Source: Paracoccus aestuarii
Lineage (GTDB): Bacteria; Pseudomonadota; Alphaproteobacteria; Rhodobacterales; Rhodobacteraceae
Direction: 5' to 3'
Length of the DNA: 64,000 bases
Assembly (NCBI RefSeq): GCF_028553885.1
Contig: NZ_CP067170.1
Span: forward strand, 124,001 to 188,000
Shown here: positions 46,657-54,313 of the stretch, piece after piece
Numbering within the stretch: position 1 is the first letter of the stretch
Layout: the number at the start of each line of letters is the position of its first letter
The notes under the pieces: model-generated
What the model was told of the DNA's origin: nothing
Database searches by the model: none
What the model saw: only the letters and a program-made list of their open reading frames with translations
Translations under genes and position numbers: made by a program

Positions 46657-48879
46657 TTATGACCTCCTACCGTTGCTTTCGCTGAACTCGTTTGTCAGGC
46701 TTTGTCGACAGAATGAGAACGTATCCGATGCAGTGATCCCGGCTCGCATCACGCCGTCCGGCCAAAGGCCCCCCAGCCCCTCATCGCCCTCCGTCAGGCC
46801 CCATGACCACGCTGCGCAATGCTCCATCAGCGCCTCGGTCGTGCCTCCCCGACCGGGGATGATACGGCTCAGCCAAATGTGCCGGGCCAGCGAGACCCGC
46901 CGCAGCAGCGCGATGCGCGGGCGGTCCAGGGGACGCCGCGCGGCATAGCCCGACAGGAAGGCCTCGCCCTGCGCCTCCAGCGCGGTGATGCTGCCGTGGG
47001 CGCGCAGGCCCTGCTCGTCCAGATGGGCCAGGAAATTCCCCAGGTCGATCGCCGGATCGCCCTGCGTGAAAAGGTCCAGATCCAGGATCCATGCCCGACC
47101 CCCGTCGATCAGGATCTGATCGGGATAGAAGTCCCGGTGGATGCCCACCGGCGCCTCGGGCGGCAGGGCCGCCAAGGCCTGCCGGGCGGCGTCCCGGATA
47201 CCCGCGATGCGGGGCGCGGCCAGGGGATCGGCCGTCGCGGCCTGCCCCAAGGCGCGGTCGAGGACCCGGTATTCGTCCTCCAGCGTCCAGCGCCGGTCGG
47301 CAGAGGCGGGCAGCGCGCCGGGCGCGACCCCGTGCAGCCGCGCCAGCGCCCGCCCCGCCAGCCGCGCCGCATCGGTGGCACCGCCCGGCCGCAGCAGATC
47401 GGTCAGCACCCGCCCCGGGACCATCTCCTGCAGCCAGAGCGCGCCCATCTCGCCCAAGGCCGCGGGGACGCCCGTCTCGGCGGTCCCGTCCAGCCCGGCG
47501 GCGCGCAGGGCGCGGTGCAGCGCGGGGGTGCGGCGGTCGGGGCCCTTGGCGCGCAGCTTTCCCAGGATCGGCGCCGCGCCCGGCAGGTCATAGCGCAGCA
47601 GCGCCCGCCGCCCCGGCTTGTGCCGCAGCAGCGTGACGGCGGGCCGGTCCGCCTGCGGGCGGCGCAGCGCTTGGGCCAAGGGCGCGGCCATGGCATCGCC
47701 GTCCTGCGCCCGGGCCAGGCCCGGGGTGACGAGCAGCGCCGCGCGGGCGGCCAAGGCCCGGGCCAGGGCGGGCCAGTCGGGGTGGCGGGCGCGAAACCCC
47801 TCGGGCAGCAGGGCCAGCAGGGCTGCGGCGCGGCAGGGCGCAATTCCGTCCGGTAGGGCGGCGACCGTCCCATAGCCCTGCAGCAGCGCCGCGCCGGCGG
47901 CCTGCGCGACCTCGGGCGTGATCGCGCCCATGGCCGCATCGGCATCCAGCCGTGCCAGGAAACGGCCCAGATCGCGGGCCGGATGCCCGGCGGCCAGCCT
48001 GTCCCAATCGATGATCCGGGGGCCATCCGCGCCGATCACCACCTGATCGGCGCTGAAATCGCCGTGGATGGCGCAGATCGGGGATCCGGGCAGGGCGCGG
48101 GCGACGGCATCCGCCGTGGCCGCCACGGCCAGATCGGGCAGCAGCGCCGCCATGGCCGCGGCATCGGCCCGGGGGTCGGGGGCGTCCGGGCGCAGATCCG
48201 CAGGCACGGCCATGCCATGCAGGCGCGCGATCAGTGCCCCCGCCTGGTGAAAGCCCTCGGGGCCGTGGCGGGCGGGGTCCAGCACCTCGCCCGGGATCCA
48301 TGGCAGGACGATGCAGCGAAACCGCCGCGACACCGCCATGGGGGGCGGCCCCGCGTGATGCGCGCCGGCCAGCGCGCCTGCGAAATCGCGCGTCCCATGC
48401 GCCTTGATCAGCGCGACCCGCCCCGAGGGCAGATCGGCCCGCATCACCAGCCGCCGCCCGGGCTTGTAGCGCAGGACCGTCAGCCCCGCGCCCTCCAGAC
48501 CCAGGGCCTGCAGAAAGGCCTGACGCCGCGCGGGCGTGCGCAGCGCCCGCGCGGCCTTCAGGTGGCGGTCGCGGGACAGGGGCACCAAGGCCGTGCAGAT
48601 CGCGTCGAGGAACCGCACCGCATCCGGCCCCGTCCACCAGGACGGCCGGGCGCGCACCTCGGCATAGCGGGCGGGGGGATAGGTCATCGCGGCCAAGACC
48701 GCCCCGTCATCGGCCACCACCCCCAGCACGCAGCTGGTCCCGGGCTTGTAGCGCAGATAGATCGGCCGCAGCGCCCCCTGCCCCGCCAGCGCGCTCAGCC
48801 GGTCGGCATCCAGCACCGCCGCCAGGCCCGGCAGCGCGGGGTCGCGCGCGCAGAGCGCCCGGTCAGCAGGCGACAGCAC
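46657..48879 (-). CDS. tandem APH-fold phosphotransferase (two kinase domains)
   Basis: 740 residues with two copies of the choline/aminoglycoside kinase fold. The first half has AIHGDFSADQVVI and RIIDWDRLAAGHPARDLGRF; the second has GIHRDFYPDQILI and WILDLDLFTQGDPAIDLGNF, so both have the catalytic HxD and metal-binding D. A further RYKPG segment recurs (LRYKPGTSC, LRYKPGRRL, LRHKPGRRA), which suggests a third partial copy. It overlaps the ABC exporter gene by 17 bases (GTG start) and is followed by glycosyltransferases, so the substrate is probably a sugar or lipid-linked sugar. The last 25 residues border an IS110 remnant and may not be native. Confidence 0.75.
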   Translation of the reverse strand: MLSPADRALCARDPALPGLAAVLDADRLSALAGQGALRPIYLRYKPGTSCVLGVVADDGAVLAAMTYPPARYAEVRARPSWWTGPDAVRFLDAICTALVPLSRDRHLKAARALRTPARRQAFLQALGLEGAGLTVLRYKPGRRLVMRADLPSGRVALIKAHGTRDFAGALAGAHHAGPPPMAVSRRFRCIVLPWIPGEVLDPARHGPEGFHQAGALIARLHGMAVPADLRPDAPDPRADAAAMAALLPDLAVAATADAVARALPGSPICAIHGDFSADQVVIGADGPRIIDWDRLAAGHPARDLGRFLARLDADAAMGAITPEVAQAAGAALLQGYGTVAALPDGIAPCRAAALLALLPEGFRARHPDWPALARALAARAALLVTPGLARAQDGDAMAAPLAQALRRPQADRPAVTLLRHKPGRRALLRYDLPGAAPILGKLRAKGPDRRTPALHRALRAAGLDGTAETGVPAALGEMGALWLQEMVPGRVLTDLLRPGGATDAARLAGRALARLHGVAPGALPASADRRWTLEDEYRVLDRALGQAATADPLAAPRIAGIRDAARQALAALPPEAPVGIHRDFYPDQILIDGGRAWILDLDLFTQGDPAIDLGNFLAHLDEQGLRAHGSITALEAQGEAFLSGYAARRPLDRPRIALLRRVSLARHIWLSRIIPGRGGTTEALMEHCAAWSWGLTEGDEGLGGLWPDGVMRAGITASDTFSFCRQSLTNEFSESNGRRS

Positions 48880-53083: not shown

Positions 53084-54313
53084 TCAGGATGCGCGGGCGG
53101 CGATGGCTCGGACGGGTGGGCGGGACAGGATGTCCTGAACCAGGGCGCGGACGCGGCCCGATCCGCCCATGTCGGGCGCGGGACCGGTCGGGCGCGGGGG
53201 CGGGCCCGCCATCCAGTCGCCCAGGGCCTGGGGCGTCAGCGCGTCGGGATGGATCATCGCGACCAGCCCCCGCGCGGCCAGGCGTTCGGTGCGGATCACC
53301 TGTTCGGCCCGGGGCCGCGCCCGCGGCACGATCAGCGACGGACGTTCCAGCGACAGGATCTCGCAGGTGGTGTTGTAGCCGCCCATGGCCACGATCCGCG
53401 CAGCCCCCTGCATCAGCGCAATGGGTTCGCGCACGAAGGGGACCAGCGTGATCTCCGGGCGGCGGGCGGTGATGTCGCGGATATGTTCGCGCAGGGCCAG
53501 GGGCATCTGGGTGCCGGTGACCAGGATGCCGCGATGCCCGGCGGGCAGCGGCGCGCGGGCAAAGGCCTCGCAAAGGCTGGCGCCGTCGCGCCCCCCGCCC
53601 ACCGCGCAATAGACATAGGGCGCGGGATCGCCGCACAGGACCGCATCCGCATCCATCCGCGCCGTGGGCGATGCCAGCCGCACGGAATGATCCAGATAGC
53701 CGACATGGCGCTGGCGCCCGCCAAAGGCGCCGTCCAGGCCGCAATCCTCGGCCAGATCGTAAAGCGAGGGGTCGCCATAGATCCAGATCGCGTCATAAAA
53801 CCGGCGCACGGTCTCGAAATTGCGCTGGCGCAGCCATTGGCGGCGCACCACGGCGGGGCGGTCGATCACGTCGCGCAGACCCAGGACCAGCCGGGTGTGC
53901 CCGTTTCGCGACAGGGCGGCCAGGGTCGCGTCCAGTTCGAACAGGGCGCCGCGCGGCACGTTGTCCACGATCATCAGATCGGGGTCGAAGGCCTGGACCG
54001 TCGCCTTGATCGCCTGCGCCCGCAGCGCGGTCAGGGGCGCCAGGTCGCGCCCCAGGTCGCGGGGGCGATAGCTGCCATCCGACCCCTTGGCATAGGCGGG
54101 CAGGGTCAGGCAGTCGACGCCCTGCGGCAGCTCGAACGCGCCCGCCTCGCGCATGCCGCCGATCAGCAGGATCTCGGGCGTGGGCAGGCCCTCCTTCAGG
54201 GCGCCGGCCAGCAGCAGGTTGCGCCGCAGATGCCCAAAGCCGAGCGTGTCATGCGAATAGAGCACGATGCGCGGCGCGCGCCGCGCCGGGGGGAATTCGT
54301 GGATCTGGGACAT
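53084..54313 (-). CDS. MurG/GT28-like glycosyltransferase
   Basis: 409 residues with a GT-B arrangement. The N-terminal RIVLYSHDTLGFGHLRRNLL is typical of this little-studied family, PDLMIVDNVPRGALFELDAT follows, and the C-terminal part has YCAVGGGRDGASLCEAFARA and ARIVAMGGYNTTCEILSLER PSL with the GxNT-type donor loop of MurG relatives. First gene of the cluster (kinase, exporter, three glycosyltransferases). The ATG at 54313 starts the conserved region; a longer frame upstream is Arg/Pro-rich. Confidence 0.78.
   Translation of the reverse strand: MSQIHEFPPARRAPRIVLYSHDTLGFGHLRRNLLLAGALKEGLPTPEILLIGGMREAGAFELPQGVDCLTLPAYAKGSDGSYRPRDLGRDLAPLTALRAQAIKATVQAFDPDLMIVDNVPRGALFELDATLAALSRNGHTRLVLGLRDVIDRPAVVRRQWLRQRNFETVRRFYDAIWIYGDPSLYDLAEDCGLDGAFGGRQRHVGYLDHSVRLASPTARMDADAVLCGDPAPYVYCAVGGGRDGASLCEAFARAPLPAGHRGILVTGTQMPLALREHIRDITARRPEITLVPFVREPIALMQGAARIVAMGGYNTTCEILSLERPSLIVPRARPRAEQVIRTERLAARGLVAMIHPDALTPQALGDWMAGPPPRPTGPAPDMGGSGRVRALVQDILSRPPVRAIAARAS

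Follow-up and report, generated by a model that had tools for sequence, protein, structure and literature searches.

What do three glycosyltransferases, an exporter and a tandem kinase make when their genes are packed into one operon? Such a set lies on the minus strand, at 46657-54313, of a 64,000-nucleotide stretch of Paracoccus aestuarii DNA (contig NZ_CP067170.1, positions 124,001 to 188,000), which we call the window. We found this five-gene unit in the same order across phyla, in an archaeon and on plasmids, and it very probably makes one defined product. The most likely product is an exported, probably uronate-containing glycan that is phosphorylated in the cytoplasm by the kinase, and we put the probability that the five genes work as a unit to make and export a phosphorylated glycan at about one half. 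An initial annotation, made from the sequence alone, had described five minus-strand genes, several of them overlapping, and all five open reading frames (ORFs) were confirmed at the positions it gave. In order of transcription they are:

53084-54313, minus strand: GT1, glycosyltransferase of MurG/GT28 fold, first gene of the operon (409 amino acids; ATG at 54313)
51825-53066, minus strand: GT2, GT4-type glycosyltransferase (413 amino acids; GTG start with a good ribosome site, chosen within a raw ORF that begins farther upstream)
50674-51825, minus strand: GT3, GT4-type glycosyltransferase (383 amino acids; Pfam)
48863-50677, minus strand: ABC, ABCB/MsbA-type half exporter of the ATP-binding cassette class (604 amino acids; ABC_membrane and ABC_tran by Pfam)
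46657-48879, minus strand: K, an N-terminal cap followed by two complete APH-fold kinases (740 amino acids; Pfam and structural model)

Three pairs overlap, ABC and K by 17 bases, GT3 and ABC by 4, and GT2 and GT3 by 1, while GT1 and GT2 are separated by 17 bases.

Lack of conservation of the gene set had been named beforehand as something that would refute the initial reading, and the set proved to be strongly conserved. We scanned 84,980 species genomes with an alignment of three K sequences and two short peptide patterns, keeping 80 matches, and obtained at least 79 K loci. Genes in these loci, called by our own gene finder, were labelled by phmmer with the window proteins and then by profiles on six-frame ORFs, and order was counted in the 68 loci, window included, whose sequence extends 5.6 kb or more upstream of K. 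The exact order GT1, GT2, GT3, ABC, K on one strand was present in 66 of the 68, which is far beyond chance. One exception (locus L138) carries the first kinase, K1, alone. The other (L111, a Caldilineaceae genome, 6763-9894) has GT3 and the exporter as one continuous in-frame ORF of 1043 amino acids, a fusion that ties the last glycosyltransferase physically to export. Across loci, the median gaps within the operon were -4, -1, -1 and -17 bases. Hosts include Rhodobacterales, Granulosicoccus, Enterobacteriaceae, Lampropedia, Lautropia, Nitrospirota, Gemmatimonadota, Phycisphaerales, Chloroflexi, Rokubacteria and many Actinobacteria, as well as the archaeon Methanoperedens; the loci span Proteobacteria, Actinobacteria, Planctomycetes, Gemmatimonadota, Chloroflexi and that archaeon. 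Among the Rhodobacterales, Histidinibacterium lentulum and Jannaschia rubra are examples of carriers. Distance correlations among the five proteins were 0.78-0.89, but these are uncorrected for shared ancestry and we do not use them as evidence.

Since these loci were chosen on K, we ran a reverse test that started from the exporter. Exporter orthologues numbered 13 in 391 genomes of the order, window included, and an earlier exporter search of close relatives had given two more. Twelve of 13 examined exporter loci hold all five genes, and the thirteenth lies on a contig that ends inside the operon; several of these genomes are shared with the K scan and at least eight are not. The neighbourhood conservation in Rhodobacteraceae that the initial annotation proposed to check is therefore only partial: the operon is present in some relatives, but at the level of this family its occurrence is patchy, so that it behaves as an accessory unit. 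Among 5,426 complete Escherichia coli genomes, 18 carry the operon in the extended version described below, always on a plasmid. These plasmid loci came from the homology search and were not picked as controls.

The three glycosyltransferases and the exporter could be assigned to folds and broad families. GT1 had no Pfam match and no match to the MurG equivalog model TIGR01133, but its family profile matched E. coli MurG (1f0k, E=3.5e-10) in a comparison with the PDB, so "MurG-like" is correct as a statement of fold. GT2 and GT3 are GT4-type by Pfam, and the nearest curated models to GT2 were EpsE and WcaL, with scores far under cut-off. The exporter scored 408.5 bits against the MsbA lipid A exporter TIGR02203, below the equivalog cut-off of 602, and 303.6 (NF010178, cut-off 733) and 236.3 bits (TIGR01192, cut-off 585.4) against the glucan exporter NdvA/ChvA. 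It shares with MsbA and NdvA/ChvA the ABCB-type half-exporter architecture used for glycans or glycolipids, but it scores far under their curated cut-offs and its gene context differs. The proposed composition of a MurG-like and two family 4 glycosyltransferases with an MsbA-type exporter thus stands at the level of families and folds. None of the five window proteins scored above the cut-off of a listed NCBIfam model (for the exporter, among the best 25 of 187 matches). Identity as a defence system was rejected, as PADLOC anti-phage models gave nothing for K or the glycosyltransferases and only generic ATPase similarity for the exporter.

Pfam placed two APH (PF01636) stretches in K and no other domain. 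In an AlphaFold2 model (mean pLDDT 92.3), an N-terminal cap with a three-stranded sheet is followed by two complete kinases (residues 132-404 and 414-698) and a low-confidence tail. The recurring RYKPG element described previously is real, occurring at residues 43-47 and 137-141 with the variant RHKPG at 419-423, and each copy falls in the first beta-hairpin of one of three N-lobe-like sheets in the model. K therefore consists of an extra N-terminal cap and two complete kinases. The catalytic residues of the first kinase (H272, D274, Q279, D291, D293) and the second (H581, D583, Q588, D600, D602) are 95%-100% conserved across phyla in a 58-sequence alignment. This agrees with the earlier description of a 740-residue protein with two active-looking APH-fold domains and, judged by residue conservation, both kinases are likely to be active. 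A single fused gene encodes K in most Proteobacteria and in a few Actinobacteria; in most other lineages and on the E. coli plasmids, two adjacent genes do so (K1 of ~430 and K2 of ~350 amino acids).

Structural comparison suggests a sugar-type substrate for K1 but does not prove it. Modelled alone (mean pLDDT 95.3), K1 had the mycobacterial maltokinase 4u94 as its best Foldseek match, and a Streptomyces-type glucosamine kinase (6hwk) and LxmK were also matched, with TM-scores normalised to K1 of only 0.35-0.51. K1 and the two sugar kinases share the motif HGDxxxxQ and may share the layout of cap and kinase and a sugar-type kinase fold, but over the full K1 length identity is 16%-19%, TM 0.35-0.45 and rmsd 12-15 Å; additionally, the sugar kinases have no second kinase, and the GlgE pathway genes are absent here. 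The motif is kept in 53 of 53 sequences (H272 to Q279 in K1), with Gln at the position that is normally Asn (HxDxxxxN); maltokinase has Gln there too, and its Gln310 binds Mg (PMC4306142). These matches would also fit K as a maker of activated precursors, one or both kinases phosphorylating free sugars that feed the donors of GT1 to GT3 while the exported glycan stays phosphate-free. Both the best full-length matches and the presence in K1 of a motif whose Gln binds Mg in maltokinase agree with such a role. We nevertheless consider it unlikely, given that TM-scores to maltokinase reach only ~0.45, that genes for a nucleotidyltransferase, GlgE or an epimerase are not among the recurrent neighbours of the operon, and that the recurrent precursor enzyme, UDP-glucose dehydrogenase, requires no sugar kinase.

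Other relatives of K raise two further possibilities. The sequence and fold neighbours of K include viomycin, capreomycin, corramycin and macrolide kinases, as would be expected if the product were a small bioactive glycoside that K inactivates in the producer and the exporter removes, as in aminoglycoside producers. This seems highly improbable, since neither scaffold-building genes nor a reactivating phosphatase recur, a secondary-metabolite cluster would not be expected to stay the same five genes in both bacteria and an archaeon, and the AlgE-like porin found beside 12 loci suggests a polymer or oligosaccharide. Alternatively, K might act on or bind the glycosyltransferases as a regulator or scaffold, as proposed for spore-coat kinases. 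In Bacillus subtilis, the cotS/ytaA cluster offers an earlier example of APH-fold kinases in close linkage with GT4 enzymes and UDP-glucose dehydrogenase, and assembly of CotSA needs CotS (PMC2860764); YtaA (2q83) was also among the Foldseek matches. However, that cluster is spore-specific and has no exporter, MurG-fold glycosyltransferase or tandem kinase. CotS may be inactive, whereas both active sites of K are almost invariant, and K reached only 27.1 bits against the CotS model TIGR02906 (cut-off 172.7), so we judge this role very unlikely. Against the LxmK lanthionine synthetase kinase model NF038156, K scored 66.5 bits, below the cut-off of 315.

The genes that recur beside the operon favour an exported glycan that contains uronate. 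An AlgE-like outer-membrane porin (PF13372) adjoins the operon in 12 loci of diderm hosts, after K and once before GT1, and in three further loci, one from Rhodobacterales and two from Gemmatimonadota, other beta-barrel proteins are encoded immediately downstream. UDP-glucose dehydrogenase adjoins it in ten loci, nine of them in Actinobacteria. The most complete version is found on conjugative E. coli plasmids, where the annotated genes are a family 28 glycosyltransferase, two GT4 enzymes, an ABC protein, two phosphotransferases, an alginate export protein and a nucleotide sugar dehydrogenase. A universal sixth gene was sought and rejected, as nothing recurs apart from porins, UDP-glucose dehydrogenase and two-component genes.

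Our proposal builds on observed features, namely operon structure, cross-phylum order, folds, catalytic residues, the fusion of GT3 and exporter, recurrent neighbours and a conserved upstream repeat. GT1, with its MurG fold, would probably act on a membrane-bound acceptor, and GT2 and GT3 would add further sugars, at least one of them likely a uronic acid from UDP-glucuronate. Both kinases of K would then add phosphate to the growing glycan while it is still in the cytoplasm, the ABCB-type exporter would carry the phosphorylated glycan across the inner membrane, and the AlgE-like porin would be the exit in the many diderm hosts that carry one. A surface glycan that is synthesized, phosphorylated and exported, as the initial annotation suggested, remains the best reading given the cross-phylum synteny, the porin, UDP-glucose dehydrogenase and the fusion. 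The product may be a glycolipid or a free oligo- or polysaccharide, and K may act on the glycan or on a precursor. A more ambitious version, in which cytoplasmic phosphorylation of a uronate-containing glycan by K licenses ABCB-type export, with porin exit in diderms, as a secretion pathway of many phyla and an archaeon, is offered tentatively, and we hold it to be doubtful.

Several observations weigh against a phosphorylated, exported glycan. The AlgE-like porin is absent from the genome of P. aestuarii itself and most Rhodobacterales loci have none adjoining the operon, UDP-glucose dehydrogenase adjoins it in only some loci, and the operon has no recurrent gene for a polymerase, a flippase or an initiating phosphoglycosyltransferase. 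Additionally, because the APH fold covers many substrates, K could instead act on a precursor or small molecule.

A functional parallel is the E. coli O9a system, in which WbdD is an earlier instance of a kinase coupled to the export of a glycan by an ABC transporter (PMC3482155). Both systems have three cytoplasmic glycosyltransferases (WbdA/B/C in O9a), a kinase, which acts on the glycan in O9a, and an ABC exporter. By analogy, K could be a chain terminator that licenses export, with the three glycosyltransferases polymerizing, the kinases capping, and only capped chains being exported; the K gene always follows the exporter gene, in keeping with this idea. However, WbdD joins a methyltransferase to a kinase of a different type, whereas K has APH domains only, with no methyltransferase domain. 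The O9a exporter consists of separate Wzm and Wzt proteins, the latter with a carbohydrate-binding domain that is missing here, while the exporter of our operon is ABCB-type, with ABC_membrane and ABC_tran fused in one protein. The O9a system also lacks a tandem APH-fold kinase, a porin and a two-component system, and a simple cap would not need two kinases. We regard a terminator role as quite unlikely, and neither the WbdD system nor the spore-kinase cluster is the same system as this one.

The initial annotation knew of no characterised pathway with this set, and our searches agree: no curated family or open-access literature match assigns it to a known capsule pathway, and we found no description of the five-gene set in the open-access literature, most subscription journals and preprints lying outside the search. 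The enzyme classes are already known and the pathway is not. If the kinases do act on the glycan, the operon would make phosphorylated surface glycans by a new route and would join WbdD as a second case of kinase-coupled glycan export, with a different build.

In this lineage, the operon probably has its own dedicated sensor system. Upstream of GT1 the window contains:

54407-54424, minus strand: putative operator, direct repeat TTCTAAT-N4-TTCTAAT, between GT1 and the divergent sensor kinase
54510-56144, plus strand: divergent sensor histidine kinase (HAMP, HisKA, HATPase; 544 amino acids), recurrent neighbour
56141-56848, plus strand: OmpR-type response regulator (235 amino acids), recurrent neighbour

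The direct repeat is common to the intergenic regions between GT1 and the histidine kinase. Its chance expectation in the window is 0.00, and the genome (3.68 Mb) has a single copy of the 17-base core TCTAAT-N4-TTCTAAT, also when one mismatch is tolerated. An 11-bp period is typical of OmpR-family regulators. Every one of the 13 K-selected loci that have the divergent two-component system carries the half site TTCTAAT upstream of GT1, and none of the eight without the system does; the half site was also absent upstream of GT1 in L071, where the system lies downstream of the operon. Among reverse-test loci whose upstream region was covered, some from genomes shared with the first set, the counts were 7/7 with the system and 0/5 without. 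This co-occurrence suggests that the operon is probably under the control of the dedicated system, acting through the repeat, to which the response regulator would bind. The conserved repeat beside a dedicated system offers an immediate handle on the inducing condition.

Two other proteins occur near the operon in some hosts. A protein of ~500-660 amino acids with no Pfam match recurs beside it in Phycisphaerales and another planctomycete (L101:12774-14288, L114:5378-7030, L090:662-2641). An ATP-grasp protein, weakly like sugar-transfer-associated ATP-grasp enzymes, lies near it in unrelated hosts (L061:12150-13331, L097:13711-14511, L099:13533-14690) and is possibly another tailoring step.

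Many members of the taxonomic family (50 of 198 genomes) have a GT1 homologue at ~40% identity, and we rejected the idea that these homologues mark the same operon. Of the 20 best such loci besides the window, only G065 and G035 carry the five-gene set; the rest sit in a different cluster with a phosphatase and a deacetylase. This related alphaproteobacterial cluster (for example, L044, L152, L153) shares the adjacent GT1-GT2 pair (GT1 at ~40% identity) and often a nucleotide-sugar dehydrogenase, but it has no tandem kinase. It comprises GT1, GT2, GT4, a histidine-type phosphatase, a second MurG-fold glycosyltransferase and a polysaccharide deacetylase, often with the dehydrogenase, and was seen in L041-L058 (e.g., L044:4817-11310, L058:4056-11833), L152 and L153. 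In many Rhodobacteraceae it adjoins phosphonate (phnM/C-P lyase) genes, and in Rhizobiaceae and Azospirillum it adjoins MsbA-like and other ABC genes. We found no description of this cluster in the open-access literature.

Just downstream of K ends a remnant of an IS110-family transposase (45656-46598, plus strand), split over two frames, with relatives on many Rhodobacterales plasmids and no close copy elsewhere in its own genome. An insertion-derived C-terminus of K was rejected, as the plasmid IS110 homology stops at ~46588-46630, short of the K stop at 46657, and the tail of K is merely low-confidence in the model. Farther away, an aldehyde dehydrogenase-like coding sequence (41301-42744, minus strand) is spread over three overlapping ORFs and is therefore probably frameshifted, as a pseudogene or through an assembly error; it adjoins a PobA-like monooxygenase (42770-43948) and an AraC-type regulator (44219-44854). 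At 637-1249 (plus strand), an overlapping small gene pair resembles an AbrB-type antitoxin and a PIN-type toxin.

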